From IMG/VR virus record IMGVR_UViG_3300047462_000016, positions 1 to 25,446 of that record: DNA of 25,446 nt. One strand, 5' to 3'. Below the pieces are notes generated by a model. It ran no database searches. It was given only the letters and a program-made list of their open reading frames with translations, and was not told where the DNA came from. Both the position numbers and the translations under genes were made by a program. Shown here piece by piece: positions 38-24,941 of the stretch. This DNA comes from a virus. Each line of letters opens with the position of its first letter. The stretch's first letter is position 1.

Positions 38-844
38 TTAATCGGCATACCACTGCCTCCAAGTCTCGGCCTCTGCGGGCTGTAGCTGCTTTGTAGCCTT
101 TCCTATCGCCTGCTCTACCTGACGTATTCCTTGAACCATGCGCCGGAACTGGTCGGGATCTAGGCTTGCCTTATGGTCCGGGCCGATGGCTTCGCGGTCC
201 ATCGTCAGGTGCTTTTCTATGACGGTGGCCCCCATTCCTACGGCAGCGGCGGGGATGTAGATGCTGTCGGTATGGTCGGAATATCCGATCTTGCACCTAA
301 GCCCATAGTGAAATTTAAGCACTTCCATTGAAGCCAAGTTAGCCTGATTGTGTGGGCATGGATAAGCACTCACACAATGAAGCAGCGTGTAGCGGTCTGG
401 TTCGTGGTCTGGGTATCTTGCCGGATACTGATAGCCCAAAGCACTCAGGGCATTGTCTACCTGTGAAATGTCGCTCATGCCGGTGGAGAGGATGATCGGC
501 AGGCCACAGTCTTTAACAGCATCAAGCAATTCCCAATCCGTGAGGCAACCGCTGGAAATCTTGACGCGCCGGAGTAGCGGCTTGAGGAAGTTAAGTTCGA
601 GGACTCCGAAAGGCGTACACATGAATTCCATACCGACTTCTCGGCAATGTGCGGCCAGTGCGGTCATGGCGTTATCGGAAAGCTCAAGATGCGCAATTCT
701 GTCGTCGCCCCACAAAGCCTGAGAGCGGAAGTGCTGGAACTTGATAGCGTCTGCGCCAGCGTGTTGGGCGGCGTCGATAAGGTCTAAGCCTTTCTCCCAC
801 TGGCCGTCATGGTTGACGCCGCATTCGGCAATGATGAAGGTCAT
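38..844 (-). CDS. neuB: NeuB-like N-acetylneuraminate/nonulosonic acid synthase lacking the SAF domain
   Basis: NeuB-family enzymes condense phosphoenolpyruvate with N-acetylmannosamine or a related sugar to make a sialic-type nine-carbon acid. The TIM-barrel signatures are all visible: IIAECGVNHDG at residues 4-14, GADAIKFQ at 30-37, the STPF-like CTPFG at 76-80, KISSG at 95-99, ILSTGMS at 118-124, YSDHT at 188-192 and EKHLT at 210-214. His191 and His212 match the metal-binding histidines of characterised NeuB. The protein is 268 residues, whereas family members usually have about 340-350. It stops just after the barrel, so the C-terminal SAF (antifreeze-like) domain, which covers the active site of the partner subunit in the NeuB dimer, is absent. 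ATG overlaps the neuC stop as ATGA (841-844), implying translational coupling. Family assignment is firm; the exact sugar and activity without SAF are uncertain. Confidence 0.88.
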   Translation of the reverse strand: MTFIIAECGVNHDGQWEKGLDLIDAAQHAGADAIKFQHFRSQALWGDDRIAHLELSDNAMTALAAHCREVGMEFMCTPFGVLELNFLKPLLRRVKISSGCLTDWELLDAVKDCGLPIILSTGMSDISQVDNALSALGYQYPARYPDHEPDRYTLLHCVSAYPCPHNQANLASMEVLKFHYGLRCKIGYSDHTDSIYIPAAAVGMGATVIEKHLTMDREAIGPDHKASLDPDQFRRMVQGIRQVEQAIGKATKQLQPAEAETWRQWYAD

Positions 845-1683
845 GGCAGCGTATATGCGAGCGTCTTAGCGATTCTCAAGCTTGCGTTCCCATCCCCCCA
901 AGGCACAACCCTTCCCTTCTGTCTCTTGCCGATCATCCTCGTTTTAATCCCAAGCTCGGGGGCTTCGTAGAGCATGGAGGAGGAGTTCCCTATGAATTCG
1001 TCGCAATGCGCGATCAGGTTCAGAAAGTCAGCGTGAGGCAGAAAGTCGTAAACAATATCCTCCGGTCCCTTGTGGATGTTGATAAGCGCGTTGATATCGT
1101 CCGAGCCACGGTCAGGATTTGGCCTGATCCATACCCTTTTCTTATCGGTCCTGAATTGCTGGAACACTCCTAGCAAGTCTGGAGAGTCAATCGTTTCGGA
1201 TTGGTAGCTGATAACGACATAAGGCTCTACGAATGGTCGCGGCGCTTTCCACGGAGCATTGCGGATGTAATCAATTCCAGGGTTGCCCACAAGGTGAACG
1301 TTGCGATAGCCCATGTGGGAGAGACGCGCCAAAGCACTAGTAGAAGTAACGAAATGAATGTGAGACATGCGAGATATGCAATCGCGCATAGCGTCGTCAT
1401 AAGAGCCTTCAGTAACATCGCCGCCTCCGATGTGGGCTATGGGGATGCGAAGCAAATGCGCTGCTGTGGCTGCGGCAAGGATCTCGAACCTGTCTCCTAG
1501 CAATAGCATGACATCGGGCCGGTACTCGGCAAGCTCAGTCCTGGTGTTGATGTGGGCATCCTCAACGCTCTGGCCCCAGATGCGGAGTAGTTGGACGGTG
1601 AACTTTTCCTCAAGGACTTTCATGGGCCATTCCAGAAGCCCATAGTCCGCGCGAGAACCTGAAACGACAAGGATGCGCTTCAA
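841..1683 (-). CDS. neuC: Compact NeuC-like UDP-N-acetylglucosamine 2-epimerase
   Basis: NeuC hydrolyses and epimerises UDP-GlcNAc to N-acetylmannosamine, the NeuB substrate. Visible signatures are SGSRADYGLL (8-17), LGDRFEILAAA (62-72), IAHIGGGDVTEG (82-93), SHIHFVTS (107-114), GNPGID (133-138) and the UDP-binding GNSSSMLYEAPELG (232-245) followed by GKRQKGR (252-258). At 280 residues it is about 100 shorter than usual. Roughly 60 residues are missing between LLRIWG and the GDR motif, and the C-terminal helix is short. At the usual catalytic-type HPVT motif it reads YQSET (160-164), so the expected His appears to be Gln161. The start is TTG at 1683, overlapping the upstream stop as TTGA (1680-1683). 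Family membership is clear; catalytic competence is uncertain. Confidence 0.85.
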   Translation of the reverse strand: MKRILVVSGSRADYGLLEWPMKVLEEKFTVQLLRIWGQSVEDAHINTRTELAEYRPDVMLLLGDRFEILAAATAAHLLRIPIAHIGGGDVTEGSYDDAMRDCISRMSHIHFVTSTSALARLSHMGYRNVHLVGNPGIDYIRNAPWKAPRPFVEPYVVISYQSETIDSPDLLGVFQQFRTDKKRVWIRPNPDRGSDDINALINIHKGPEDIVYDFLPHADFLNLIAHCDEFIGNSSSMLYEAPELGIKTRMIGKRQKGRVVPWGDGNASLRIAKTLAYTLP

Positions 1684-1904
1684 ATGTATCGCGCCTTTCC
1701 GTTACGAATCCATTTATCGAGCGTTTCGGAACTGATGTGAAAATGCCTGCGCACGGAATAGATGGATTTGAACTTCTGGCCGTCAACGAGAAGCGGAATA
1801 CCGCTCTTAGAGCCTTGGATGTAGGCTCTTCCATGATGCGTGTGGATGCGTGATGGAAGCGTAGAGGAAAGCCGCAGGGCGACTTCGGGCAGATCGCCTT
1901 TCAC
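1680..1904 (-). CDS. Small NUMOD1-like helix-turn-helix protein
   Basis: Protein of 74 residues. Its C-terminal half has the pattern I-P-L-L-V-D-G-Q-K-F-K-S-I followed by VRRHFHISSETLDKWIRNGK. This resembles NUMOD1-type DNA-binding modules found beside or inside phage HNH/GIY-YIG endonucleases: a short beta hairpin, then a helix-turn-helix. I chose GTG at 1904 rather than the upstream GTG at 1934 because it overlaps the preceding stop as GTGA (1901-1904), like every other junction in this cluster. It also has GGGAG 8 bases upstream. No catalytic domain is present. It may be an orphan DNA-binding remnant of a homing endonuclease or a small regulator; the function is not known. Confidence 0.6.
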   Translation of the reverse strand: MKGDLPEVALRLSSTLPSRIHTHHGRAYIQGSKSGIPLLVDGQKFKSIYSVRRHFHISSETLDKWIRNGKARYI

Positions 1905-2119
1905 GAAACGTGCTCCCGATAAGCTTGCCAGCACTTCGCGCAGATTCCGTCAGTGAAAAAACATTCACCGCCGCAGCCTGAGCATGGCGGCAGTTCCCAA
2001 GAGGCTGCGCGAGTGGGGTAGGGGTCGTTTTCTTCTGGCTGTAGCATGGAATTCTTTTCAGCCCGAGATTGGGGCAGAGGTTTCTCACGCAATGGGAAAC
2101 CGTCAGGATGCGGTTTCAT
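1901..2119 (-). CDS. Small zinc-ribbon-like protein
   Basis: Protein of 72 residues with a proline/charged N-terminus and a C-terminal cysteine cluster: Cys46-x2-Cys49-x3-Cys53 and Cys60-x2-Cys63. The pattern suggests a single zinc knuckle or ribbon. ATG overlaps the upstream stop as ATGA (2116-2119) and its own stop overlaps the next gene's GTG, so it is part of a coupled cluster. An internal ATG at codon 25 (MLQPEEND) is an alternative start that would keep the whole cysteine motif. I do not recognise a named family; a nucleic-acid-binding or structural zinc role is inference from the motif. Confidence 0.55.
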   Translation of the reverse strand: MKPHPDGFPLREKPLPQSRAEKNSMLQPEENDPYPTRAASWELPPCSGCGGECFFTDGICAKCWQAYREHVS

Positions 2120-2298
2120 TCTTTGCTTTCGGCTAACAGTTTTTTGATGTTAGCTGCGTAAGCTTTGTTAGCCTCGCGTACACAGTCCTTGCACTGGCCG
2201 TTGGATGTGTACCTGATGCCTTTGTGACCGTGTTTGCAGGGGCGACCTTGATAGGTCCAGGCCCCGTCTTTGGCGGCTGAGAGTCGAGCGTCGGTCAT
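2116..2298 (-). CDS. Small phage zinc-binding protein (CxHxH-CxxC)
   Basis: Protein of 60 residues. The central motif Cys21-x-His23-x-His25 ... Cys36-x2-Cys39, with GIRYTSNGQC between, is the layout of small phage zinc proteins of the PCxxGHxxxRYTSxGxCxxC type. These resemble the zinc-binding N-terminal part of some HNH endonucleases but lack the nuclease. The C-terminal tail is a lysine-rich helix. The start ATG overlaps the upstream gene's stop as ATGA (2295-2298). It may help neighbouring DNA-binding proteins, but no function can be assigned from sequence. Confidence 0.6.
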   Translation of the reverse strand: MTDARLSAAKDGAWTYQGRPCKHGHKGIRYTSNGQCKDCVREANKAYAANIKKLLAESKE

Positions 2299-3173
2299 GC
2301 TGATTCCATTCGTTCAGTTTTCAGCATCATATTTACGGTCGCCTTTGAAACATCCATTTTCTTGGCGATTTCTCCGATTGTTTTTCCATCATCAAAGAGC
2401 CTTTTCGCGTACAGTGCGCGATTCTTCCGTGCAGCACTTTTCAACCCGCCTGTATAAAAGGAATTTTGAGCGAGGGTAAGAATCTCGCAGTTCTCAGGGG
2501 AAAAAGGACCGTTCTTGTCCTTTCGACCGAGGACAAGGGAATTACGCTCACGCTTGAACAGATGCTCGCGCCCATTCAAGAGCGCGGCATATTGCGGAAG
2601 GGTGAACTTCCATTCTGTATGTTGTCTTTGGGCGGTTCCTCTATGATGCCAATAGAGTTGAATCAGCCGGTTATTAGCATGGCGCTTGAGCTGATTCGTT
2701 CTGGTGAGCGCGAAGAATTCTTCAAGAGAACATCCGTAGACATGGAAGCAGCGTTTTTCTGCGCGCGCTCTATTATCAATGGCTCTCGCTACTGAATTTC
2801 TGGCGGCGCGTTTATGACTGCCACCATCCTCTTTTTTAATACCAATGGAAGAAATTAGCTGGCGAACGCGCTCCCGCGTCATTCGTTCTTGAATGCCAAT
2901 TTCTTCAAGAGTCATTCCTTGCTTGTAGTTTTCGGCAAGAGCTTTAGCTCGTTCAATGCGTTCGTTCTTCGCGGCCTCGCGTTGTTCGGCGCGGATCTTT
3001 CGGTATTCTTCGACGGCTGTGATGGCTTGAAGAATTCCTTGTTCGTCCCAAAAGCGAGCTTTCCCGATCCAGCCACTTTCCTTGACAATACCTGGGAGAA
3101 TATAGGTGGTGTAAAAGGCGCTGCGAGAGATGCCGCAGCGTTCGGCGGTTTGGAGAATGTCGAAGATAGCCAT
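2295..3173 (-). CDS. DNA-binding protein with sigma-70 region 4-like HTH and degenerate HNH-like segment
   Basis: Protein of 292 residues and the first gene of the minus-strand cluster. Three DNA-binding-type segments are visible. The N-terminal helix-turn-helix (about 10-30, ERCGISRSAFY) could be MerR/excisionase-like. A sigma-70 region 4.2-type helix (about 85-112) carries the string TRERVRQL. A C-terminal resolvase-like HTH (about 262-285) reads KTIGEIAKKMDVSKATVNMML. Between them, GRKDKNGPFSPENCEILTLAQNS (split here as GRKDKNGPFSP and ENCEILTLAQNS) matches the second half of phage HNH-like modules, whose usual form ends ...YxPxNCRxxTxxxQN, but the paired histidines are missing. It is probably a regulator or a nuclease relic. 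ATG at 3173 has AAAGGTGG about 12 bases upstream, a rather long spacing. Confidence 0.6.
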   Translation of the reverse strand: MAIFDILQTAERCGISRSAFYTTYILPGIVKESGWIGKARFWDEQGILQAITAVEEYRKIRAEQREAAKNERIERAKALAENYKQGMTLEEIGIQERMTRERVRQLISSIGIKKEDGGSHKRAARNSVARAIDNRARAEKRCFHVYGCSLEEFFALTRTNQLKRHANNRLIQLYWHHRGTAQRQHTEWKFTLPQYAALLNGREHLFKRERNSLVLGRKDKNGPFSPENCEILTLAQNSFYTGGLKSAARKNRALYAKRLFDDGKTIGEIAKKMDVSKATVNMMLKTERMESA

Positions 3174-3255
3174 GCGGTAACAATACCACCTTTCTTAAAC
3201 CTGCGCTACCAATACTCTTTGTCTTGACACTCTAGCATTCCGTCGAGGGTTTAGG

Positions 3256-3630
3256 AAAATGGTGATGCTGTAAAGCTCTTAAGAATGCGGGTGTGGGGTT
3301 CCACGGCCTGGCACCGGGCTTCCCTCCCAACACCGTGCCACCCCGCAGTCTTAAGGGCTTCGCAGTCGCAGACCGGCGAAACAGGCCGTTGAGTCCAGCC
3401 ACGTTACATGGACGCGCCTAGAACCAGCGCAGCGAGCCTTGGCCCAGGGACTCGCACGAACAGGGAAGCCCAAAGACAGTACGGATCGTTACCTCGGCGT
3501 TACGAGGCCCTGGAAGAAGAATGAGCCTGCAAAGACAAATGCCCCGGAATGTCGAAGGGCATGGTTCACCCTATTCCCTAAATACAAAGTAAAGAGCAAT
3601 GTAAGTTAGCAGGGAATATTTGCAGTAATC
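3256..3630 (+). ncRNA. Candidate structured RNA, HEARO/omega-RNA-like layout
   Basis: No gene fits here, but the plus strand folds into many helices. A long hairpin is formed by 3274-3284 with 3349-3359 (11 bp, one G-U) and continues with 3286-3291/3342-3347 (TGCGGG/CCCGCA). GGGCTTC (3355-3361) can pair over distance with GAAGCCC (3465-3471), competing with or extending the first stem. This closes a domain of four hairpins: 3374-3377/3385-3388, 3393-3397/3409-3413, 3414-3417/3427-3430 and 3432-3436/3451-3455. Further hairpins are CCTCG/CGAGG (3492-3496/3503-3507), ATGCCC/GGGCAT (3539-3544/3557-3562) and TATTCCCT/AGGGAATA (about 3570-3618). A 5' long hairpin followed by a closed multi-stem domain is how I remember HEARO (IscB omega) RNAs. 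No iscB, isrB or tnpB gene is adjacent. Strand is inferred; the antisense could also fold. Confidence 0.5.
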
Positions 3631-3639
3631 TTCTTTTCC

Positions 3640-3930
3640 ATGCAAGCCCCAACATCTCCAATCTGCGCCGTTGTCGAGCTTGCCATTCAGCCGCAATACG
3701 CAGGCTTCGACGGAACTCCAGTCCGACCGCTTCAGCAAGTCGTCCTCCGACCCGACAAGATCCGCGAAGGCTATATTCGCCTAGGCGAAACTCCAGGCGA
3801 TGAAGCCCTGTGCTGGATTGCGCTTGAAAATGTGGAGATAGTTTTCGAGATCGGGCCAGCGATTCGCTCCATTGACGCCAATGGCCAAGAGAAATGGACC
3901 GTGCAGAACAAGCTTGAAAAGGCCGCTTGA
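3640..3930 (+). CDS. Hypothetical phage protein upstream of terminase
   Basis: Protein of 96 residues, soluble and moderately acidic, with no motif I recognise. Its ATG at 3640 has no obvious ribosome binding site: the bases upstream are pyrimidine-rich (cttcttttcc). The stop TGA is immediately followed by the ATG of the next gene, the spacing typical of this operon, which argues that it is real. Being first on the plus strand after the structured RNA, it may depend on that upstream transcript. Alternative starts upstream in frame (ATA, ATC) are not convincing. Confidence 0.55.
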   Translation: MQAPTSPICAVVELAIQPQYAGFDGTPVRPLQQVVLRPDKIREGYIRLGETPGDEALCWIALENVEIVFEIGPAIRSIDANGQEKWTVQNKLEKAA

Positions 3931-4176
3931 ATGGGCGCTAGAGGCGTCAGATTGCATCCTAGGCACCAAGACGAAGTGCGAGCGAAGATTCAATCGAGTC
4001 AGATCATTAATCGCTTGCAAAATCATTTGGATGGCGAAGTAAATTTAAGCCCTACTCAGGTTAAGGCTGCTGAAATCCTCCTGAAGAAGTCAATTCCCGA
4101 TCTTTCCTCCACCGAATTGACCGGCGATCCAGACAAACCAATTCGCGGTGTGCTGAGTTGGGGAAATCCCGATTGA
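3931..4176 (+). CDS. Terminase small subunit-like protein
   Basis: Protein of 81 residues directly upstream of the large terminase. The core, from about residue 12 to 60, reads HQDEVRAKIQSSQIINRLQ and then SPTQVKAAEILLKKSIPDLS. It matches a short helical family repeatedly found before terL in podophages and often annotated as terminase small subunit, where it would recognise phage DNA for packaging. It is smaller than classical TerS and has only one predicted HTH-like helical pair, so DNA recognition is inferred. The ATG follows the previous stop directly (TGA-ATG), and its own stop overlaps the probable ATT start of terL. Confidence 0.6.
   Translation: MGARGVRLHPRHQDEVRAKIQSSQIINRLQNHLDGEVNLSPTQVKAAEILLKKSIPDLSSTELTGDPDKPIRGVLSWGNPD
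4160..4174 (+). promoter_or_regulatory. Ribosome binding site and ATT start of terL
   Basis: GGGGA at 4160-4164 followed by 7 bases and ATT at 4172-4174. This site decides the terL start because no ATG, GTG or TTG lies between the in-frame stop (4154-4156) and the Walker A codons. ATT is a known but rare start codon, as in bacterial infC. Confidence 0.5.
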
Positions 4177-5497
4177 TCCGATTTACACTCCGCGCCGTCC
4201 TTTCGTCGCGCTACACAAAAGAAAGCAGCGATGGGTATGTCTCGTTGCTCACCGCAGAGCAGGAAAGACAGTTGCGGCGGTGAACGAATTAATCAAAGGC
4301 GCTATCGAGTGCGACAAACCGCGACCGCAATTCGCCTACATCGCGCCTTTCCGGGATCAAGGAAAGAAAGTTGCCTGGGAATATCTCAAGCAATACTCAG
4401 AGCCAATCTGGGCAGACAAGCCGAATGAATCCGAACTCAAAGTCAAACTCCTTGGGGATGCCTCGATCAGTGTTTACGGCGCTGATAATCCTGATGCTCT
4501 GCGCGGTATTTATCTCGATGGTGCTTTTCTTGACGAGTTCGGAGACTTCAGACCTTCCGTTTGGGGAAATGTTATTCGTCCAGCTCTTTCTGACCGCGCT
4601 GGCTGGGCTGTGTTTGGTGGAACCCCAAAGGGCCGCAATGAATTCTGGCAGGTGCGAGAACGCGCAAGACAAACCCCCGCTGAATGGCTGCTGCTGGAGC
4701 TTCGTGCGAGCGAATCCGGCATTCTTCCACGGCAAGAGCTTGAAGAAGTAAGACGCCAACTCACCCCGGAGCAATATGCGCAGGAATTCGAGTGCGATTT
4801 CTCCGCAGCACTGCCTGGAGCGTATTTCGGACGGGAAATGGTGGTTGCAGAACGTGAAGGAAGGATCACCAGTGTTGAGGTTGACAGTGCTGTCCCGGTC
4901 TATACGGCTTGGGACATCGGTTATCGGGACGACACAGCTATCTGGTGGTTTCAAGTCATCCGAAACGAAATCCACGTCATCGACTACCACGCCTCCAGCG
5001 GCCAAACGATAGATTTCTACGCCAAGCTTATCAAAGAGCGTCCTTATCGATACGAGCGGCATTGGCTACCGCATGATGCAAGGGCTAAGACTCTGGCCTC
5101 TGGCGGAAAATCCATCATCGAGCAACTTGCAAGCCATCTCGATTTCAAGACCCTTGCAATCGCGCCTAACCTCGATATTCAGGACGGCATCCAAGCGGCA
5201 CGTATCGCCATTGGACAATCATGGTTCGATGAGCAGCGATGCTACGAAGGGCTTGAGGCCCTGCGTCAGTACCAACGCGAATACGACGAGGACAAGAAAG
5301 CTTTCAGGGAGCGGCCCAGGCACGATTGGACTTCTCACCCTGCTGATGCTTTCCGCATGCTTGCCGTGGCTTGGAGAGAGCAGGAACCGCCTAAGCCAGC
5401 CTCAGAACCCATGCGCGGCATCATGGTAGGCCCGGAGAACAGGGTGACGCTGGAAGAGATGTGGCGCGTTCCCAAGCGGCAGGAGCGGAGGATTTAG
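4172..5497 (+). CDS. terL: Terminase large subunit (ATPase-nuclease), probable ATT start
   Basis: This is the packaging motor ATPase and headful/cohesive-end nuclease. Read from ATT at 4172 it has 441 residues: the adenine-binding YTPRRPF start, Walker A AHRRAGKT (26-33), Walker B GIYLDGAFLDEFGD (112-125), coupling motif GTPKG (150-154), the RuvC-like nuclease WDIGYRDD (247-254), and the C-terminal HDWTSHPADAFR (384-395) with a metal-binding Asp. The first ATG/GTG/TTG in frame is GTG at 4280, which lies after Walker A and would give a dead enzyme. The frame opens after a TGA at 4154-4156 and contains no conventional start before 4280. ATT at 4172 has GGGGA at 4160-4164, 7 bases upstream, and overlaps the TerS-like stop. 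A +1 frameshift from the upstream gene is the alternative. Confidence 0.9.
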   Translation: MDPIYTPRRPFVALHKRKQRWVCLVAHRRAGKTVAAVNELIKGAIECDKPRPQFAYIAPFRDQGKKVAWEYLKQYSEPIWADKPNESELKVKLLGDASISVYGADNPDALRGIYLDGAFLDEFGDFRPSVWGNVIRPALSDRAGWAVFGGTPKGRNEFWQVRERARQTPAEWLLLELRASESGILPRQELEEVRRQLTPEQYAQEFECDFSAALPGAYFGREMVVAEREGRITSVEVDSAVPVYTAWDIGYRDDTAIWWFQVIRNEIHVIDYHASSGQTIDFYAKLIKERPYRYERHWLPHDARAKTLASGGKSIIEQLASHLDFKTLAIAPNLDIQDGIQAARIAIGQSWFDEQRCYEGLEALRQYQREYDEDKKAFRERPRHDWTSHPADAFRMLAVAWREQEPPKPASEPMRGIMVGPENRVTLEEMWRVPKRQERRI

Positions 5498-5499
5498 CC

Positions 5500-5655
5500 A
5501 TTCCTTGGTCTAGCAAACAGCATCGTCTTTTCGAGGCCGCAGCGCACAACCCGCAGGTAGCGGCTCGCGTTGGTATTCCGCAGCAGAAGGCCGCGCAGAT
5601 GGCCTCAGAGGGCATCAAACGAACCGCAGTCGCAGCGGCTTTGAAGAAAAAATGA
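5500..5655 (+). CDS. Small conserved phage protein between terL and portal (probable ATT start)
   Basis: Basic protein of 51 residues reading (M)PWSSKQHRLFEAAAHNP and VARVGIPQQKAAQMAS-like helices, a short helical family common near terminase and portal genes in podophages, of unknown function. GTG at 5461 is possible (64 residues, overlapping terL by 37 bases), but its GGAAGAG lies only 2 bases upstream. The ATT at 5500 has a perfect GGAGG at 5487-5491 with 8-base spacing, sits 2 bases after the terL stop, and makes the protein begin with the usual MPW/MPF-x-SK pattern. I prefer ATT; the GTG start remains a fallback. Confidence 0.6.
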   Translation: MPWSSKQHRLFEAAAHNPQVAARVGIPQQKAAQMASEGIKRTAVAAALKKK

Positions 5656-5701
5656 CCGATCACTTGGTCCCCATCAGGATTTAATCCAAAGGAGAATCCA
5701 A

Positions 5702-6028
5702 GTGCTTCCAGGTACTTATTTCGGCACACCAACACGCCTTACTGCTACAGGCACGGTCTGCATTACTTCGGCCAATGCCTGCATACTCGGAATTGCTTTT
5801 CAGGGTACTGGCACTGGTTTTTTAACTCTCTTTGCCGGTGTTACTTCTACCGCTCCTGCCACGTTGCTAGGTGTGGTCAGAGCTTTCACAACGGTAGGCG
5901 GGGCGACGGCCAACCAAGCTCTTTACTTTCCGTTTCCTGCTTATTGTCCAAGCGGGATTACCACGATTGTAGGGGCTACAGCAGATCCTTCGATCACGCT
6001 TTTCTGGAACCCGGTCGGTGGCCCGTAA
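5702..6028 (+). CDS. Hypothetical small virion-type protein
   Basis: Protein of 108 residues rich in Gly, Thr, Ala and Phe, with alternating hydrophobic strands and no charged helices. This composition suggests a beta-rich decoration or small structural protein, but I recognise no family. The GTG start has AGGAG 7 bases upstream. Its end overlaps the portal start by 11 bases. Its position between terminase and portal fits a minor head protein; that is context only. Confidence 0.6.
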   Translation: MLPGTYFGTPTRLTATGTVCITSANACILGIAFQGTGTGFLTLFAGVTSTAPATLLGVVRAFTTVGGATANQALYFPFPAYCPSGITTIVGATADPSITLFWNPVGGP

Positions 6029-8459: not shown

Positions 8460-8755
8460 TGGCCTTTTTTGACGATCCCAAGCATATCGCAAAGCAAAAG
8501 GCCACGCTTCGCAGCATGATCGAAGAGGCTCTTACGCCTCAAGCCGTTCCCATTCCAGAAGAGACTGTGGCGATTGCCAAGCAATTTACCCGCAGGGCCA
8601 GAAAAGGCACTGTGGTCATAGACTGGCAGCGCATCGAGAGGGAAAACGCCCTGCGGGAACAACTCTATGCCTTGGCTTTGGAACACCAGCGCAGAAAGCT
8701 CGAATTTGAAGAGGACGAAGAGGATGTGGCCTTGATCCTGGCGAGCATCCATTGA
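8459..8755 (+). CDS. Hypothetical helical protein after portal
   Basis: Protein of 98 residues, mostly charged helix, ending in an acidic EFEEDEEDVALILASIH tail. The ATG shares one base with the portal stop (TAATG), and AGGGA lies about 10 bases upstream, so it is translated with the portal. No family is recognised. A head-assembly accessory role is possible by position only. Confidence 0.6.
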   Translation: MAFFDDPKHIAKQKATLRSMIEEALTPQAVPIPEETVAIAKQFTRRARKGTVVIDWQRIERENALREQLYALALEHQRRKLEFEEDEEDVALILASIH

Positions 8756-8756
8756 A

Positions 8757-9122
8757 ATGCTCGGCTACAAAGTCATGCAGGCAGGAGTCCAAGGGCTGGC
8801 TGTGCAGGCTATTTGCATGGATGCGGCTACCGCTATCTCAGCGGCAGGCTCTACCCAAGGAACGGCTACAAGCCTCACCAATGCGGTTAATTTCATCGGC
8901 ACGGCTGCGTCGGGTTCCGGCGTCGTTCTATCGAGTAGCGCCACGGCTGGCGATTCGCAGTTTGTTTACAACGGAGGAGCTAACCCGGTGAAGGTCTATC
9001 CCCCTTCTGGAGCTTCAATCAATGGCCTTACGGCTAATGCCCCTCACGTTCTGGTAATGCGCACCGCCTGCCAATACTTCTGCGGCAGCGCAACACAATG
9101 GGCGGCGGTGCTAAGTGCGTAA
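8757..9122 (+). CDS. Small virion-type protein, paralogue of the gene at 9496
   Basis: Protein of 121 residues, Gly/Ser/Ala/Thr-rich and beta-like. It shares with the protein at 9496-9861 the blocks SAAG(S/T)TQGTAT, GSG/GAGVVL, N-GGAN/AGAN, KVYP-SGASI and a terminal LSA, so the two arose by duplication. The ATG follows the previous stop after a single base. It may be a decoration or head-fibre-like protein; that is inferred from composition and context. Confidence 0.65.
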   Translation: MLGYKVMQAGVQGLAVQAICMDAATAISAAGSTQGTATSLTNAVNFIGTAASGSGVVLSSSATAGDSQFVYNGGANPVKVYPPSGASINGLTANAPHVLVMRTACQYFCGSATQWAAVLSA

Positions 9123-9477
9123 ATCCTACGTCCAGGTTGACGGCGTTCTTTACGAAAAGGGTACGGAGCCATTGCAGGAGCTTCCCTACGTTGTAGGCGA
9201 CCTGAAGCCCTACAAGTCAATGGCCGATGGCAGCATCATAGAGGGCAGGGCACAACACAGGGAACACCTTAGAAAGCATGGCTGTGTCGAGGTAGGAAAT
9301 GAAACAAAGCACCATTTAGGCTACTATGACCGCATTGCAAAAGAGGTTGCTTCAAAACAACGCGAATCCCGCGTCGGATTACTCCGCGCCCAGTTCGATT
9401 CAATGACGGACAGGCAGGTAAGGGCCGCAGTCAAGCGCGATGCGGATTTTGTGAAGTGGAACAGCCGGGATGGCTGA
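9115..9477 (+). CDS. Conserved podophage hypothetical protein
   Basis: Protein of 120 residues. The N-terminal half includes YVVGDLKPYKSMADGSIIEG and RAQHREHLRKHGCVEVGNE (roughly 25-62), a pattern I have seen in conserved proteins between portal and capsid genes in podophages, whose function is not established. The C-terminal half is a basic helix. The GTG start overlaps the preceding gene by 8 bases. It separates two paralogous genes, so the duplication is not a simple tandem. Confidence 0.6.
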   Translation: MRKSYVQVDGVLYEKGTEPLQELPYVVGDLKPYKSMADGSIIEGRAQHREHLRKHGCVEVGNETKHHLGYYDRIAKEVASKQRESRVGLLRAQFDSMTDRQVRAAVKRDADFVKWNSRDG

Positions 9478-9495
9478 TCGTATAGGAGCAATATC

Positions 9496-9861
9496 ATGCC
9501 GTTGTCAGCAAACGTAATCCAAGGTGGCCTTTCTGGCGGTAGCGCACGCGCCATTGTCGGCGGGGCTGTCAATTCATCCGTAAGCGCCGCAGGCACTACC
9601 CAAGGCACAGCAACCGCTATCAGCGCGGATGTGGTGGTCGTTACCACCGTCGGATCTGGAGCCGGAGTCGTTCTTCCGCTCGTTGGTCATGGAAGCATGA
9701 CGGTCTTTAACGCCGGGGCGAATGTTCTCAAGGTCTATCCAGGTTCCGGGGCTTCAATCACTCCACTTTCTGCCAATACGGCGATGACTCTGCCGATCAA
9801 TACCGCTGTCACCTTCACTTGGGTATCGGTCACGCAGATTGTCGCTAACCTGAGCGCGTAA
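9496..9861 (+). CDS. Small virion-type protein, paralogue of the gene at 8757
   Basis: Protein of 121 residues, the same length as the 8757 protein, with shared blocks TQGTAT, GVVL, AGAN-LKVYP, SGASI and terminal LSA. It has AGGAG 7 bases before its ATG, so it is translated independently. The paralogues differ most in the N-terminus and in the final strand region. A capsid decoration role is plausible but not shown. Confidence 0.65.
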   Translation: MPLSANVIQGGLSGGSARAIVGGAVNSSVSAAGTTQGTATAISADVVVVTTVGSGAGVVLPLVGHGSMTVFNAGANVLKVYPGSGASITPLSANTAMTLPINTAVTFTWVSVTQIVANLSA

Positions 9862-9874
9862 ACAAGCAGCACCA

Positions 9875-9888
9875 ACGTCGAGAGACGT
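9875..9888 (+). terminator. Short hairpin before the scaffold gene
   Basis: ACGTC-GAGA-GACGT forms a 5-bp stem with a GAGA tetraloop in the 50-base gap before the scaffold gene, followed by AGGGTTTT. The U-tract is short, so it would be at best a weak terminator. It could also be an mRNA-stabilising or processing hairpin that sets off the highly expressed scaffold-capsid pair. Confidence 0.3.
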
Positions 9889-9911
9889 AGGGTTTTAACA
9901 AGGAGATTTTT

Positions 9912-11036
9912 ATGGCTGGTGAAGGCGAGCAGGCTACCCTGCGCGATACCGTTGCGGCAACGTTCGATGCTGTTATTCCAGATGCCGACAATCCCCCTGT
10001 AGTCACCGAAGTAAAGGCGACGCCGGAGCCAACGGAAACAGCCGAAGCAAAAGAGGCCCGTGATCGGGATGAAAGGGGCCGCTTTACTCCCAAAACCGAA
10101 CCCGCAGCCGCACCTGCAAAGCAGGCTACAACTCCTCCCCCGAGTGCCGCGCCAGCGCAAGCGGCGGCTGCGGAACCGGCTAAACCTCTCCAGCGTCCCT
10201 CAAGCTGGAAAAAGGAAATGTGGCCGCTGTGGGAGAAATTGGCGACCGGCCAAGCCCTGAGCGCTCAGGAATCGCGCCAGATCGCGGAATACAACCTCCA
10301 GCGTGAGGCCGATGCCGCCAGAGGGGTCAGCACCTACAAGCAGGAATGGGATCGCGCCAAGCCCATCCTCGACGCTGTAGCGCCCTATCTGCCGATGTAC
10401 CAGCATCATGGGATAGACCCTGGCGTTCAATTCGCCCGCTATGCCGAGATCCACAAAGGCTTGGCGATGGGCAACGAGCAGCAAAAGCTTGGCGTCCTGA
10501 TGACGCTTGCCCGTGACTACAACATTCCCGTGGAAAAGATGTTTGTCCAGCAGAACGGACAGCTTTTCTACAACCCCCAAGTTCAGCCTTCGGCTCCACA
10601 GCCGCAGGCGCAGGCGTTCGATCCCCGCAATATCGAGCGCACCGTCCAATCCGTCATCTGGAAGGAAAGGGCGGCAGCAGAGATTGCGACAATGGAGAAA
10701 GATTCTCAGAGGTATCCGCATTTCGACGCCGTGCGAAACACAATGAGCCAGCTTGTCGAAGCCGGTATTGCTTCTATGGACGATCTCCCTGGCGCGTATG
10801 AAGCCGCTCTTGCCCTTCCGCAGCACCGCGAACTCCTTGCCGAGCAGCAACAACAGCAGGCCGCGCAAGCAGAAGAGGAACGGAAGGCAAAGCAGGCAGC
10901 GGAAGTTCGACGTGCGCGAGCGGCAGCGGCAAGTCCTCGGTCGGCAACACCGGCCTCGGCCCCCGCGCAAGCTCGAAAAGGGCTGCGGGACACCATCGCG
11001 GAGCAAGTAGACGCCTTGGCTACCGGCAGAGTCTAA
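9912..11036 (+). CDS. Scaffold-like capsid assembly protein
   Basis: Protein of 374 residues immediately upstream of the major capsid gene, the usual place for a scaffold. It has a Pro/Ala/Glu-rich disordered region (about 30-100), a central helical segment (about 100-260) and a Gln/Ala/Arg-rich coiled coil (about 300-350). Both termini carry a similar amphipathic motif: TLRDTVAATFDA near residue 9 and GLRDTIAEQVDA near the C-terminus. Start ATG has AAGGAG upstream with good spacing. Scaffold identity is inferred from composition and synteny; no protease motif is visible. Confidence 0.65.
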   Translation: MAGEGEQATLRDTVAATFDAVIPDADNPPVVTEVKATPEPTETAEAKEARDRDERGRFTPKTEPAAAPAKQATTPPPSAAPAQAAAAEPAKPLQRPSSWKKEMWPLWEKLATGQALSAQESRQIAEYNLQREADAARGVSTYKQEWDRAKPILDAVAPYLPMYQHHGIDPGVQFARYAEIHKGLAMGNEQQKLGVLMTLARDYNIPVEKMFVQQNGQLFYNPQVQPSAPQPQAQAFDPRNIERTVQSVIWKERAAAEIATMEKDSQRYPHFDAVRNTMSQLVEAGIASMDDLPGAYEAALALPQHRELLAEQQQQQAAQAEEERKAKQAAEVRRARAAAASPRSATPASAPAQARKGLRDTIAEQVDALATGRV

Positions 11037-11054
11037 ACAAACTAGGAGCCAAAC

Positions 11055-11093
11055 ATGGCTTTTGCCAATAGTTCCATCACGGACATCATCGCT
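11055..11093 (+). CDS. Major capsid protein, exon 1 (codons 1-13)
   Basis: AGGAG lies 6 bases before ATG at 11055, and the frame reads MAFANSSITDIIA, the typical N-terminus of this capsid family. It then runs into TTT-TAA inside the intron. The exon ends at GCT (11091-11093), the last base U pairing with G of the intron guide sequence. Splicing to ACC at 11906 gives ...SSITDIIA-TTIQSRSG..., restoring the frame between codons. The whole mature protein would be 343 residues. Confidence 0.85.
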
Positions 11094-11095
11094 TT

Positions 11096-11662
11096 TTAAA
11101 GATGCGAAATGTCTTTTTCGGTTATTCGGTTCTTCTTCTTGCGATTCTGCGCAACCGTTAGATATTGCAGATTCCAAGGCACATGAAGCCCGCTAACAGG
11201 ACGGCCATCAATCAATCCCTTAAGGGGAATGATATGGTCAACCTCGTGCCCCTTCGGACAGTTTGCGTAGATGCTCAAAAGAGCGTCCTTGCAAACCCAA
11301 GCAGGAGTGCAGCGTTTAACGTCCTTTCTGCGGAAGTAAAGCCTAGCCGGATTGTTGGGGTCATTCGCCCATCGTTCGCGCCTCGCCTCGTTAATGGTTT
11401 GCTTGCGTCTATCGTAAGCGGCCTTTTTCTGAGCAGCGATGCGTTCGCGGTAGGCGGCGTCCTTAGCGTATCTGGCGGCTCTCCATGCGTTTTGGTAGGC
11501 GCGGTATCTCCCCTTGTATTGCGTTGCTCTGGCGCGGCTGGAAGCGTTGGAGCAGGGCTTGCAACGGTAGCTGACGGTATCGAGCTTTCGGTAGAACTCG
11601 GAACGCGGTTTGTCGATGCCGCATCCGGGGCAGATTTTGCTAGTAAAAGGCTGCTTAGCCAT
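11096..11662 (-). CDS. HNH homing endonuclease, antisense in the intron P1 loop
   Basis: Protein of 188 residues on the strand opposite the capsid gene. An N-terminal zinc ribbon (Cys11-x2-Cys14 ... Cys34-x2-Cys37) in the form CPGCGIDKPRSEFY is common in phage HNH proteins. A basic, arginine-rich linker follows (about 40-115). The HNH fold lies in 139-180: HEVDHIIPL with His143, GLHVPWNLQ with Asn164, and QNRKKKN with Asn173. ATG at 11662 is chosen over the frame's upstream extension to 11761, which would run into the intron core. No Shine-Dalgarno is present, but an extended -10 ends 6 bases upstream, suggesting a leaderless mRNA. The stop TAA (11098-11096) is 2 bases inside the 5' splice site. 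It presumably cleaves intronless capsid alleles and drives intron homing; that role is inferred from family and location. Confidence 0.85.
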   Translation of the reverse strand: MAKQPFTSKICPGCGIDKPRSEFYRKLDTVSYRCKPCSNASSRARATQYKGRYRAYQNAWRAARYAKDAAYRERIAAQKKAAYDRRKQTINEARRERWANDPNNPARLYFRRKDVKRCTPAWVCKDALLSIYANCPKGHEVDHIIPLKGLIDGRPVSGLHVPWNLQYLTVAQNRKKKNRITEKDISHL

Positions 11663-11668
11663 ATAGAC

Positions 11669-11677
11669 ATTATAGCA
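11669..11677 (-). promoter_or_regulatory. Extended -10 promoter for the antisense HNH gene
   Basis: On the minus strand the bases read TG-C-TATAAT (11677 to 11669), a perfect extended -10 hexamer. The start ATG at 11662 lies 6 bases downstream, where transcription would begin, implying a leaderless transcript. No good -35 is visible, as is usual for extended -10 promoters. The site falls between the endonuclease gene and the intron guide sequence, in intron-specific DNA. Confidence 0.5.
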
Positions 11678-11905
11678 CCGGTAGGCGATGTAAAACAGCG
11701 TGAATTGCGGGAAAAGCGAGCTACGCCAATCCGCAGCCAAGGCGATCAGGAATGGTCGCAAGGTTCAGAGACTAGGGCATGGAGTCCAGACCGGACAGTA
11801 AAGCCCCACGAGCGCGCTGCACCCATTAAGGGTGATGAGATAGTCCGACCTGTGCGGTTGAACGCACAGAAGCAGGAGATAAAGAACTCCTGCGATAACA
11901 AAGTG

Positions 11906-12898
11906 ACCACGATCCAAAGTCGCAGCGGTGAATTGGCGGATAACTTCACCAACAACAATGCGCTGCTGCGCCGAGTGAAGGCGAAGGGAAACGTCAAGCC
12001 GTTCTCAGGCGGTAATGTGATCTTGCAGGAAATCGCATATACCGATTCCACCACCATCAACGCCAACAGCTATTCGGGATATGAAATCCTGAATATCACG
12101 CCGAACAGCCCCATTTCGGCGGCGCAGTTCAGCATCACGCAGTATGCGGCAGCCGTCACGATGTCCGGCCTCGAAATGCTGCAAAACAGCGGCAAAGAGG
12201 CAATCATCGACATGATGGAAGGCCGTATTGCGATTGCGGAAGGCCAACTGCCGAACCGCATCGACTACGACCTGTATCAAGACGGCACGGGCAACTCGGG
12301 TAAGAACGTCACCGGCCTTGCGGCGGCGGTCCCCGATACCCCCACCAGCGGCACTTACGGCGGCATCTCGCGCTCTTCGTTCGCTTTCTGGCAGTCGGTG
12401 TCGTATTCCGGCGTCACGAACGGCGGTGCGGCGGTGTCGGCGGCGAACATCCAGCCGTACATGACCGCTCTGGGTATCCGCCTCGTCCGTGGCCGCGACA
12501 TGCCGGATCTGTGGGTAGCGGACAACACCTACTACCAGTATTACGTCAACAGCCTGCAAGCCATCCAGCGCATTAACAGCGATTCTGGTAGCGGCACTGC
12601 GGGCGCTGGCTTCCCGTCGCTGAAGTTCTACGGCGGTGGCATGGCGGCTGACGTGGTTCTCGGCGGCGGTGTCAGCGGTGCGGTTTCGTCCAGTGTCTCA
12701 TCGAGCGGGGCAACCTCCGCGCACATGTGGGCGCTCAACACGAACTACATCTTCTTCCGCCCTCACAGGGACCGCAACTTCGTTCCAATCGGTGGTGAGC
12801 GTCAGTCGGTGAACCAGGACGCCATCGTGAAACTGATCGGCTGGGCTGGCAATCTCTGCTGCTCGAATTCGAGCTTGCAGGGCGTGCTGATCGCATAA
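11906..12898 (+). CDS. Major capsid protein, exon 2
   Basis: Main part of the major capsid protein (330 residues of the 343-residue spliced product), starting TTIQSRSGELADN and continuing through VSGGNVILQEI-like FSGGNVILQEIAYTDS, typical of a podophage HK97-fold capsid family. The downstream region is rich in Gly/Ala/Ser loops and ends with GWAGNLCCSNSSLQGVLIA. No start codon or ribosome binding site precedes ACC at 11906, so expression depends on splicing. The frame stays open upstream across much of the intron (back to about 11165), and a naive reading would give a false fused protein of 577 residues. Confidence 0.88.
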   Translation, partial: TTIQSRSGELADNFTNNNALLRRVKAKGNVKPFSGGNVILQEIAYTDSTTINANSYSGYEILNITPNSPISAAQFSITQYAAAVTMSGLEMLQNSGKEAIIDMMEGRIAIAEGQLPNRIDYDLYQDGTGNSGKNVTGLAAAVPDTPTSGTYGGISRSSFAFWQSVSYSGVTNGGAAVSAANIQPYMTALGIRLVRGRDMPDLWVADNTYYQYYVNSLQAIQRINSDSGSGTAGAGFPSLKFYGGGMAADVVLGGGVSGAVSSSVSSSGATSAHMWALNTNYIFFRPHRDRNFVPIGGERQSVNQDAIVKLIGWAGNLCCSNSSLQGVLIA

Positions 12899-12910
12899 GG
12901 AGAAACAGAA

Positions 12911-13441
12911 ATGTCCAACACTTTTTACACGAACGGCAGCACCATCGGCTTCGATGCGTCCAACATGAGCGCAACCGCTCTGTTCGCGCTCGGCAGCCAC
13001 ATGCTCGGCAACAACGAGACGGAATGGGTATATGTCCAAGCCCAGACCACCATCAGTGCGCTTTCCTGGGTTGCGTTCAATGCGACTTACTCCGCCGGTA
13101 TGGCCTCGGCGGGCGACGTAGCGGCGAACGGCATGACGATTGCCCTTGCAAACGCGCAAATCTCGGCCAGTTCCTACGGTTGGGTGGCGATTCGAGGTCT
13201 GGGCCTCTCCGGTATCTTCACAGGCACCGGCTCCCTCGCCCTCACCAGCGGCCAACTGCAACTGGCATCGAGCGCCGGGACGACCGGCACAATGATGCTG
13301 GGGACGGTGGGAACGGCGAGTTGCACCATCGCTGGCGCTTCTCTGGTTGCGACGGCGAGTTCCTCGGCTACCGGTCTGGGTGCGGGTGCGTCGAACGTGA
13401 CGCTCTTTAACCTCTACTGGCCGCAACAAGCTACCAGGTAA
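12911..13441 (+). CDS. Decoration-like virion protein after the capsid gene
   Basis: Protein of 176 residues, very rich in Ala, Gly, Ser and Thr, with repeated short strand patterns (GTGSLAL, GQLQLASS, GTMMLGT) and few charges, typical of beta-structured capsid decoration or head proteins. AAGGAGA is 9 bases before the ATG. The position right after the capsid gene supports a decoration role, which remains inference. Its stop shares one base with the next ATG (TAATG). Confidence 0.65.
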   Translation: MSNTFYTNGSTIGFDASNMSATALFALGSHMLGNNETEWVYVQAQTTISALSWVAFNATYSAGMASAGDVAANGMTIALANAQISASSYGWVAIRGLGLSGIFTGTGSLALTSGQLQLASSAGTTGTMMLGTVGTASCTIAGASLVATASSSATGLGAGASNVTLFNLYWPQQATR

Positions 13442-14454
13442 TGGAGATTCGTCCCGCTACGCTGGACGAGGTAAGAAACGCACAGGCTTCGGGGAACGTC
13501 CTGAAGCCTGTGCGGCTTGCTTTGTGCATGGAAAGCTGCATTACCGAAGTAGAAATGCACGACAACTTTTTTGCGACGCTAGAGCGCGGATTCACGCCAA
13601 TCAATGAATACCTTGGGGCTTTCAGCGGCACTTGCTCCGTGGTTGGATCAGCTCCGTCCATCAGGCAGACACATAAGGAACTGCAAGGAGATGTAATCGC
13701 CATCAACAGCGCCATCGGCTACCTGCTGGATAACGGGGTGGTTCCAAAATTTGGTGTTCTGTGGGATGGAACAGAAATTATTGAGAAGTTCGCAAGACCA
13801 CATCCTGACATTACCTACCTTGTGGCTTCGCGTTGTCATCCTAAAGTCTTTGAGAGGCTGAAGGACTGCAAGGTAATTGTTTGGCACGCCGGAGGCGACC
13901 ACAACATCGTAGAAGTCATGCAAAGGGAAGATGTTGTAAAGAAAATGGGCATCCCGCAGCCGCTTGTGCTTGGCGGTTCCGCAGGGGTGACCAGGACCAT
14001 GTACCTCGCCACAGCCTTGGGCTACACGGATCTGCACATCTACGGGGCCGATTCAAGCTATTCCCATGATGGGGATACGCATATCGCCGGAAGCTTGGTT
14101 CCAGAGAAAGACTTCACCATCAGCATCGGGGATAACTCGGAAGGTGCGCCTGCGGTGTGGTTCAGGACGACGCCAGAATGGTGCCAGCAGGTGAATGAAT
14201 ACCGGTCCATCTATGCTCTTTTTACGCTTGGCGGAAGGATCAAGATTGCCGTGCATGGAGGAGGGCTTTTAGGGGAGATGCACGCCAGGATTTCTTCGCA
14301 GAAGGAATTTCTTGGAGAGGAAAAGTTCAACGAGAAGATAATCGCGCAGGATCTTTTGCAGGCAGAAGTAAACGACATGGCTTCTGGAATTGATAGCAAG
14401 AAAGAATCTCATCCTCTACAGGAGAAAGAAAATGTCTCAAATGCTTGCCAGTGA
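13441..14454 (+). CDS. DUF115/MptE-like, Maf-type putative glycosyltransferase
   Basis: Protein of 337 residues. GSAPS (69-73), DVIAINSAI (84-92), PKFGVLWDG (102-110) and the long block GGSAGVTRTMYLATALGY (178-195), ending IYGAD (200-204), are hallmarks of the DUF115/MptE-like Rossmann-like domain. Relatives include archaeal MptE pterin diphosphokinases and bacterial Maf proteins, which are needed to transfer pseudaminic, legionaminic or sialic-type sugars onto flagellin. In a late phage operon, beside capsid genes and in a genome with neuB and neuC, the Maf-like role is attractive but inferred. The C-terminal 60 residues are a charged helical extension. ATG overlaps the previous stop by one base; the end overlaps the next gene by 23 bases. 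Confidence 0.7.
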   Translation: MEIRPATLDEVRNAQASGNVLKPVRLALCMESCITEVEMHDNFFATLERGFTPINEYLGAFSGTCSVVGSAPSIRQTHKELQGDVIAINSAIGYLLDNGVVPKFGVLWDGTEIIEKFARPHPDITYLVASRCHPKVFERLKDCKVIVWHAGGDHNIVEVMQREDVVKKMGIPQPLVLGGSAGVTRTMYLATALGYTDLHIYGADSSYSHDGDTHIAGSLVPEKDFTISIGDNSEGAPAVWFRTTPEWCQQVNEYRSIYALFTLGGRIKIAVHGGGLLGEMHARISSQKEFLGEEKFNEKIIAQDLLQAEVNDMASGIDSKKESHPLQEKENVSNACQ

Positions 14455-15109
14455 TGTGAATAATCCCGAGTTTGTCGGTGCCGTTACCAACCCTGACGCA
14501 CTTTTGTTCGTTGAGTTCTATTGGCACACACCTATCGACAAGTGGGGTTCCGAGGAGGCAAGCGCCAAGGCTGGGCGCAGGGTCGTCGTCAACATGAAGA
14601 AGATTGACTATGACGAACACGGGGTTGCCAAAAAGACCAAAGAGGATCTGAAAATCCCCTACGTTCGCATCATGAAACCTGGGGATCAGACTTCTATCGT
14701 CGAGGTTGCGGTAAGGGAAGATCACAAGCAACGCTGGCCGCAGCAGTGGCTTTACTGGCAGATGGCGGAAGGTCTTGTTGACGAAGGCAAGAATATCCCC
14801 GGCTGGCCGATTGAGCAATGGCCGCACATGGACACCATGCCGGATGAGCTTCGCAATCTGAAGTTCATGCGTTTCTACACGGTGGAGCAGATTGCCGGGG
14901 CATCGGATGCGCAGATTCAGCGGATCGGTCTGGGTGGCATGGGGTTGAGAGAACAAGCAAGGGTAGACCTCCGCAACAAGATGGCGAAGGATCTGAACGC
15001 AGGTATCAAGGAGCGTGACGCCATCATTGAAGAGCAAGGGAAAGCTCTTAAAGCCCTGCAAGATCAGATGGCGCAGGTTCTTGAGCAGGTGACAAAACCA
15101 AAGAAGTAA
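14432..15109 (+). CDS. Conserved podophage protein with C-terminal coiled coil
   Basis: Protein of 225 residues from ATG at 14432, which has AGGAGA 7 bases upstream; an in-frame upstream start at 14390 lacks this site. The N-terminal 130 residues are globular with many Trp. A segment reading LRNLKFMRFYTVEQIAGASD leads into the helical GLREQARVDLRNKM and a long coiled coil to the C-terminus. I have seen this arrangement in podophage structural regions, without established function. The stop is followed directly by the next ATG. Confidence 0.6.
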   Translation: MSQMLASDVNNPEFVGAVTNPDALLFVEFYWHTPIDKWGSEEASAKAGRRVVVNMKKIDYDEHGVAKKTKEDLKIPYVRIMKPGDQTSIVEVAVREDHKQRWPQQWLYWQMAEGLVDEGKNIPGWPIEQWPHMDTMPDELRNLKFMRFYTVEQIAGASDAQIQRIGLGGMGLREQARVDLRNKMAKDLNAGIKERDAIIEEQGKALKALQDQMAQVLEQVTKPKK

Positions 15110-16045: not shown

Positions 16046-17599
16046 ATGCGTAGAGCCACAAACGTAGTTCCACTTCGCAGAGGCGCACAGCAATCCCGCG
16101 CTGTCACTGCTTCCATCCCAAGCCCCACTGGAGGGTGGAATGCGCGTGATGCTCTTGGAGAGATGGAGCCTACGGATGCGGTGACGTTGACGAACATGTT
16201 CCCGTCAACTACCAATGTGGTCCTTAGATTTGGCTACTCTGCTTTTGCGACCGGAGCGCCAGCCCAGGTTCAGTCTCTTTTTTGCTATTCAGGCGGAACG
16301 ACCAACAAGCTGATTGCTGTCTCTAACGGCGCGTTCTACGATATTTCCTCTGGTGGGGCGTGGCCTTCTTCTTCGGTTTCAGGGTTATCAAATAGCAAGT
16401 GGCAATACGTCAACATTACAACGGCGGGTGGAAGCTTTATCGAGTGCTGTAACGGCGCGGATCACGTCTACACCTTTGATGGTACTAACTGGGTTGACCG
16501 GGACGGAGCCATTACGGGGGTTTCATCCTCGACGCTGATCGGGATTAACGTCCACAAAAACCGCGTCTGGTTCGTTCAGGTCGGCACCTTAAAAGCGTGG
16601 TACTTGCCTACCCAGTCGATTAGCGGAGCCGCTAATGCCTTAGACCTTTCCGCCTTCGCTCCTCACGGTGGCTATTTGATGGCGATGGCGACCTGGACAA
16701 TGGACGCCGGATACGGTGTGGACGACATGGCCGTATTCATTACGAGCGAGGGGGATGTCCTCGTCTATCGAGGGACTGACCCATCCTCCGCAACGACTTG
16801 GGCGCTCGTTGGTGTCTGGTGGTTGGGCAGACCCATTGGGCGGCGTTGCTTCGTCAAGTACAAGGGCGATGTAATCATCATCACGCAGGATGGCCTTGTA
16901 CCGCTTTCCGGTGCTTTGCAATCCTCGCGGCTTAATCCTCGCGTTGCTTTGACCGACAAAATCCAATTCAAGGTTTCAGAGTCGGTGAGCAATTACGGCT
17001 CCAACTTCGGCTGGCAGATGTTGCCCTTCCCGAAGGAGAACATGCTGTTCCTGAATGTTCCCATTAATGCTACGAACCTTCAGCAGCAATATGTGATGAA
17101 TACGATTACCAACCAGTGGTGCAATTTCACGGGTTGGCCTGCGGCTTGCTGGGAGCTTTACAACGACGATCCTTATTTTGGTGGACCGACCTATGTAGGC
17201 AAGGCTTGGTCAACCAATGCCGATGCTGGAACCGCAATTACCTATTCTGCCCTGCAAGCCTTCAATTACTTCGGTGAACGCGGCAGGACAAAGCGTTATT
17301 CCATGTTCCGGCCTACATTCCAGCTTACCGGGCAGCCGATTGTCTACGGCAACATGGCGGTGGATTTCGACCAAACCGCGCCGTCCTCACAGCTTTCCGT
17401 GGTGAGCGGGGCTGGTTCGTCATGGGATTCTGGGACATGGGATAGCGTGACGTTTGGAGGGTATAACTTCAGCCGCGCATGGCAAGGGGCTTCAGGGGTT
17501 GGATACTGCGCCGCTCCTAATATCACAGGGACCGCGCAGGGGCTTGAGCTTCAGTGGATCTCGACTGACGTAATTCTGGAACCTGGGGCCTACCTGTGA
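16046..17599 (+). CDS. P22 gp10-like packaged-DNA stabilisation protein (beta propeller)
   Basis: Protein of 517 residues. The start PSPTGGWNARDALGEMEPTD, with repeated short beta blades through the protein (GAFYDISSG, DHVYTFDGTNWV, GDVLVYRGTDP, GDVIIITQDGLVPLSG), matches podovirus tail-hub/DNA-stabilisation proteins related to P22 gp10. In P22 this closes the portal-tail channel after packaging. The ATG directly follows the previous stop. The end overlaps the next GTG as GTGA (17596-17599). Confidence 0.7.
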   Translation: MRRATNVVPLRRGAQQSRAVTASIPSPTGGWNARDALGEMEPTDAVTLTNMFPSTTNVVLRFGYSAFATGAPAQVQSLFCYSGGTTNKLIAVSNGAFYDISSGGAWPSSSVSGLSNSKWQYVNITTAGGSFIECCNGADHVYTFDGTNWVDRDGAITGVSSSTLIGINVHKNRVWFVQVGTLKAWYLPTQSISGAANALDLSAFAPHGGYLMAMATWTMDAGYGVDDMAVFITSEGDVLVYRGTDPSSATTWALVGVWWLGRPIGRRCFVKYKGDVIIITQDGLVPLSGALQSSRLNPRVALTDKIQFKVSESVSNYGSNFGWQMLPFPKENMLFLNVPINATNLQQQYVMNTITNQWCNFTGWPAACWELYNDDPYFGGPTYVGKAWSTNADAGTAITYSALQAFNYFGERGRTKRYSMFRPTFQLTGQPIVYGNMAVDFDQTAPSSQLSVVSGAGSSWDSGTWDSVTFGGYNFSRAWQGASGVGYCAAPNITGTAQGLELQWISTDVILEPGAYL

Positions 17600-24937: not shown

Positions 24938-24941
24938 CCCA

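Follow-up and report, generated by a model that had tools for sequence, protein, structure and literature searches.

The window analysed here is the entire linear IMG/VR virus record IMGVR_UViG_3300047462_000016 (25,446 bases), which encodes two short enzymes of nonulosonic acid (NulO) synthesis, NeuB and NeuC, together with a Maf-like DUF115 (PF01973) protein. A preliminary description of this DNA had named these three genes and placed the DUF115 gene among the capsid genes and the neu genes elsewhere; both statements hold, as all three are intact genes with Pfam or TIGR matches, and the neu genes occupy 38-1683 (Table 1), with the left end of the record lying 37 bases past neuB. The phage family carrying these genes is uncultured and Mx8-like. 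The window's major head protein is 44–47% identical to those of Bradyrhizobium phage ppBjS10J-1 (47%), Stenotrophomonas phage BUCT555, and Myxococcus phage Mx8 (44%), its capsid operon has the Mx8 order (terminase, portal, small genes, major capsid protein [MCP], p49, p50), and a scan with the portal protein recovered 80 related contigs, all uncultured.

Table 1. Positions and strands of the genes discussed, with the basis for each assignment
Feature	Position	Strand	Basis
NeuB-type nonulosonic acid synthase, short form, 268 aa	38..844	-	PF03102, TIGR03569, closest PDB sequence 6ncs
NeuC/LegG-type hydrolysing 2-epimerase, short form, 280 aa	841..1683	-	PF02350, TIGR03568, 5xvs by sequence and model
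DUF115/PF01973 single-domain Maf-like putative glycosyltransferase, 337 aa	13441..14454	+	PF01973, 5mu5 profile match, AlphaFold2 model
Homologue of Mx8 "major virion structural protein" p49, candidate acceptor	12911..13441	+	Long-form hidden Markov model finds Mx8 p49 at E 2.5e-10
Unassigned 84-aa reading frame, first gene upstream in the neuC-neuB unit, overlapping the neuC start	1680..1934	-	
Major head protein open reading frame	11165..12898	+	phrog_9953 major head protein, E 2e-89; conserved core about 11906-12898
Gene in the Mx8 p50 position (connector side)	14432..15109	+	ATG with AGGAG upstream; conserved neighbour in relatives

The window NeuB matches the Pfam NeuB family at E 3.1e-69 over profile positions 1–240 of 241 and TIGR03569 at E 3.4e-80, and the window NeuC matches PF02350 at E 1e-37 and TIGR03568 at E 7e-58; both TIGR scores fall under the full-length cut-offs, as expected because the phage proteins are short. 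NeuB stops after its NeuB domain, with no Pfam match to a C-terminal SAF domain. Phage NeuB proteins are mostly 235–276 aa long, compared with mostly 330–425 aa in bacteria, and short members also exist elsewhere, as in 6ncs (290 aa). The active-site set, a His pair (SDH, EKH) plus Glu, Lys, Tyr, and Asp residues, is present, and in our residue table Glu7, Lys35, Lys95, Tyr161, His191, His212, and Asp223 show no variation among the short phage proteins and almost none in bacteria. The neuB and neuC frames share 4 bases; a Pfam search of the 84-aa frame at the head of the unit returned no family.

The model of the window NeuC has the Epimerase_2 fold, with a TM score of 0.81 to 5xvs, and the protein keeps the conserved D, R, D, D/E, R, NS, E, and R residues; every catalytic residue checked is kept in the short phage proteins, except the His of the YHPET motif (discussed below). 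Phage NeuC proteins measure 268–296 aa, compared with 359–488 aa for nearly all bacterial NeuC. In scans with the phage NeuC, close relatives (55–61% identity) were confined to phage contigs, and the remaining 78 matches, in bacterial genomes, were 25–39% identical, the recovered bacterial NeuC being at least 359 aa long. One of the close relatives, L109 (JAUSDQ010000349.1), is binned with a Sulfuricaulis metagenome-assembled genome; we treat it as a phage contig because its portal (G050:C164:16585-18603) is 58% identical to the window's and its cassette, like that of the window, diverges from the terminase. All eight short phage proteins group in a single clade with SH-aLRT (approximate likelihood ratio test) support of 100 in a tree from a short search with several long branches elsewhere. 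Against annotated phages, tblastn found only distant matches for NeuC (26.6%) and NeuB (27.8–29.8%) and none for the DUF115 protein.

Shortness extends to the phage LegC and NeuA proteins, which are unusually small like NeuC and NeuB; as read from alignments, phage LegC keeps the pyridoxal phosphate lysine and phage NeuA the nucleotide motifs. Other phage contigs hold homologues of 50–64% identity, and third codon positions diverge about 2–3 times more than second positions, an excess that suggests selection for functional proteins. With both observations in hand, the neu and DUF115 genes lie far beyond chance.

The preliminary description found NeuA missing and expected it from the host or from outside the window. 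There is indeed no neuA in the window, a linear record that ends just past neuB and is not informative on the full genome, and the gene was probably cut off at the record end. When neuA was sought beyond the window, it was found in five related phages, directly adjoining neuB in L004, L105, and L109 and neuC in L002 and L006, so it need not be host-supplied. The L002 cassette encodes NeuD, a DegT aminotransferase (PseC/LegC-like), a radical SAM protein, an HldE-like kinase and adenylyltransferase, a GmhA-like protein, E1 alpha and beta, WbuX, a TIGR04372 glycosyltransferase, a PseF/NeuA-like cytidylyltransferase, NeuC, NeuB, and WbuZ/HisF. A PseB/LegB-like dehydratase is added in L109, L106, and L105, while HisH (WbuY), sought in ten records, was not found.

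A phage NulO pathway is likely, but plain sialic acid (Neu5Ac) appears a less probable product than a legionaminic-type sugar. Because the relatives carry NeuD, a LegC-like aminotransferase, and a PseB/LegB-like dehydratase, and because the solved NeuC nearest in sequence carries the annotation UDP-diacetylbacillosamine 2-epimerase, the product is likely a legionaminic-type diamino NulO, perhaps amidated, with a stereochemistry that is not readable from sequence.

Two further features of these cassettes may be recorded. A frame of 181–184 aa starting MRVLVACEFSG or VRVLVACEFSG lies among the cassette genes of two distant phages (L105:8321-8866 and L109:10804-11358), with no Pfam match in L105. 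The HldE-like, GmhA-like, and E1 alpha/beta genes beside the neu genes at L002:3915-6610, several of them shortened, may make a second sugar.

The DUF115 protein matches PF01973 at E 1.2e-13, above the curated cut-off. It found no match when used alone in a close-relative scan of viral contigs; homologues there were retrieved with a 4-row alignment. Searched against the PDB, a profile of 16 phage DUF115 homologues matched Maf (5mu5) at E 2.8e-14, MptE at 3e-6, and a sialyltransferase at 0.015. The comparison of a predicted structure with Maf, proposed at the outset, agrees: the AlphaFold2 model (pLDDT 77, pTM 0.76; residues 308–337 under pLDDT 50) finds Maf as its best PDB match, with Z 18.9 over 215 residues, and the best sialyltransferases, several of them solved with CMP or a CMP-sugar, at Z 8–10. 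The match spans residues 244–503 of 5mu5 only, the N-terminal (Rossmann-like) and C-terminal (helical) domains of Maf being absent. The model therefore depicts a single-domain relative that comprises the central domain alone. In full-length Maf (motility associated factor), a transferase of NulOs onto flagellin, this central domain is pfam01973 and resembles Cst-II (PMC11339370, PMC13317340).

The DUF115 gene lies within the capsid operon: at TAATG its start codon runs into the stop of the preceding p49-type gene, so that the two are translationally coupled, and its 3' end shares 23 bases with the p50-type gene. In many relatives DUF115 retains this slot between the p49-type (major-virion-protein homologue) and p50-type (tail connector) genes, bordered on the left by the major head protein frame and on the right by the p50-type gene. 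The p49-type protein is homologous to Mx8 p49 over most of its length and contains 25.6% Ser+Thr, and from its sequence and position it is a plausible DUF115 acceptor. DUF115 homologues that occupy this slot carry fused methyltransferase domains and also a domain that reads as GT-A-like by sequence and was not recognised by Pfam. Another DUF115-positive phage has an inserted gene for a WbuX-like N-acetyl sugar amidotransferase within its tail module (L060:14495-15646).

The strongest link between the neu and DUF115 genes comes from the distant phage L105 (also G051), in which a single run holds two DUF115 genes, an acetyltransferase, NeuB, NeuA, LegC, NeuC, and a methyltransferase. Flanking the run are the connector and, in the slot position, a 223-aa gene rich in Ser/Thr; just upstream of the portal lies a PseB/LegB-like gene. 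Though this is one genome, and scans with the L105 NeuC and L105 DUF115 proteins for a second such cluster found none, its gene arrangement is the best evidence that the neu genes and DUF115 work together. In addition, DUF115 is present in every one of the four NeuB-positive phages whose slot is in view (the window, G001, G005, and G051); the two ends of the G005 contig share 391 bases, which makes a closed genome probable. This co-occurrence is weak on its own, DUF115 being frequent anyway (PF01973 was present in 15 of 49 records tested), and we do not take it as statistical proof since most records are fragments.

Based on these observations, we propose that the phage encodes a NulO route for virion glycosylation. 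The NeuC/LegG-type enzyme would release and epimerise the sugar from its UDP form, the NeuB/LegI-type enzyme would condense the product with phosphoenolpyruvate, and a NeuA, probably encoded just past the contig end, would activate the NulO with CTP. The single-domain Maf-like protein from the capsid operon would then use the CMP-NulO to modify Ser/Thr residues on a virion protein; the major virion protein, whose gene immediately precedes that of DUF115, is the likeliest target. While the gene identities and the fold are well supported, we consider this route, with DUF115 transfer to a virion protein, about evenly balanced between right and wrong, and it is the best single reading of the locus. 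A more specific version, in which UDP-GlcNAc is converted to a legionaminic-type CMP-sugar by largely miniaturised enzymes with altered active sites and the single-domain Maf glycosylates a major capsid-surface protein, giving the particles a sialic-acid-like coat of the phage's own making, is less likely than not.

Several observations weigh against this proposal, beginning with the enzymes themselves. One near-invariant residue is replaced in each, so their activity is not assured: the YHPET active-site His, present in 77 of 77 bacterial rows, is Gln161 in the window NeuC and Q or Y in all eight short phage rows, and the acidic residue of GSGE (E134 in 1xuu), E or D in 68 of 68 bacterial rows, is Cys100 in the window NeuB. 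A changed substrate is a possible explanation for both. Moreover, the second-closest fold to the DUF115 model is that of the pyrophosphokinase MptE/HPPK (Z 14.8). The replaced residues and this fold would fit a DUF115 protein that is pyrophosphokinase-like or a non-catalytic structural component, accompanied by NeuC and NeuB in decay or repurposed. We regard this as very improbable, as Maf comes first by both sequence profile and structure, homologues carry fused methyltransferase domains, and decay is at odds with the third-codon excess and with catalytic residues that are invariant apart from those replaced.

The content and placement of the cassette also admit another role. The full cassette of the relatives includes genes typical of surface polysaccharide loci (the WbuX amidotransferase, WbuZ/HisF, GmhA-like, HldE-like, and TIGR04372), as well as NeuD and E1 alpha/beta, and in several relatives it lies beside the terminase, apart from the slot and sometimes on the opposite strand. 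Furthermore, 13 of the 15 PF01973-positive records, many of them fragments, have no NeuB in view. These points suggest that the neu cassette could serve superinfection exclusion or receptor change by modifying O-antigen, capsule, or flagellin on the surface of an infected or lysogenic host, leaving DUF115 as an independent virion-module gene with another donor. We judge this somewhat unlikely: the L105 neu genes sit in the DUF115 slot itself with two DUF115 copies, and none of the cassette genes was recognised as a flippase or polymerase, although no search was aimed at them.

Since most DUF115 phages show no NeuB, a phage-made NulO is not obligatory for DUF115, and at least some of its members may rely on other or host-made donors. 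DUF115 keeps its slot over most of the MCP tree, whereas NeuB is patchy, and the DUF115 fusion partners differ (methyltransferase, GT-A-like), which is consistent with DUF115 glycosylating virion proteins from a host nucleotide sugar and being paired with phage neu genes only incidentally or optionally. This appears improbable in view of L105, which unites both, and, with the reservation made above, of the slot-bearing NeuB-positive phages. The joint route put forward in the preliminary description therefore has a direct genetic link in one relative but not a general tie.

The acceptor, too, meets a difficulty. In metagenomic relatives every DUF115-positive phage has a long p49-type protein, whereas the DUF115-negatives have a short one (97–102 aa, ending after a YGW motif). 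We considered the long decoration-type protein as a marker of DUF115 phages and rejected it: the DUF115-negatives form one clade on the MCP tree, amounting to a single change, and Mx8 has the long virion protein without PF01973, its p49 and p50 genes being directly adjacent, so the protein does not need DUF115. For these reasons, the association serves as no more than a pointer to the acceptor.

To our knowledge, few phages have been found to glycosylate their virions. Glycans occur on the capsid and tail-tube subunits of mycobacteriophages, for which phage-encoded glycosyltransferases have been proposed (Freeman 2023, cited in PMC12619734, PMC11256854); these accounts, in the parts available to us, mention no NulO pathway or Maf domain, whereas here the sugar itself appears to be phage-made. 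The phage DUF115 protein shares the central PF01973 domain with the Maf of Magnetospirillum magneticum (5mu5), and the co-occurrence with NulO genes resembles bacterial flagellar glycosylation islands (PMC13317340). However, the phage gene differs in its capsid operon setting, with no flagellin gene seen in the window, and in lacking the flanking Maf domains. Likewise, the phages draw on the same families as the legionaminic and sialic pathways (NeuB/LegI, NeuC/LegG, NeuA/LegF, LegC, NeuD, and PseB/LegB), often as adjacent genes, but with much shorter enzymes and the residue replacements described above. A literature search, with most subscription journals outside its coverage, returned no account of phage NulO synthesis joined to a Maf-like gene. 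NulO pathways, Maf, and phage virion glycosylation are all known, and the proposed route would be a variation on them.

Other parts of the window contain additional features. Between the neu genes and the terminase, a 292-aa protein (2295-3173, minus strand) has sigma-70 region 4 and helix-turn-helix matches. The tail module includes an acyl-CoA N-acyltransferase-type gene (17596-18033), and GNAT/acetyltransferase genes are annotated at the matching place in BUCT555, ppBjS10J-1, and MW202489. The lysis region (24046-25431) contains a small holin-like frame, nested Rz/Rz1-like frames at 24942 and 25147, and a Tlde1/YkuD-domain (L,D-transpeptidase-like) protein (24252-24614).

If the proposed route is correct, the NulO pathway and the Maf-type transferase of the capsid operon would together demonstrate that phages can synthesise sialic-acid-like sugars and attach them themselves, which would have a bearing on receptor mimicry, on the stability of the particle, and on its recognition by the immune system. 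Enzymes as short as these would represent naturally minimal forms of well-studied biosynthetic counterparts, and the replaced residues make the chemistry of the short NeuC and NeuB a question in its own right.

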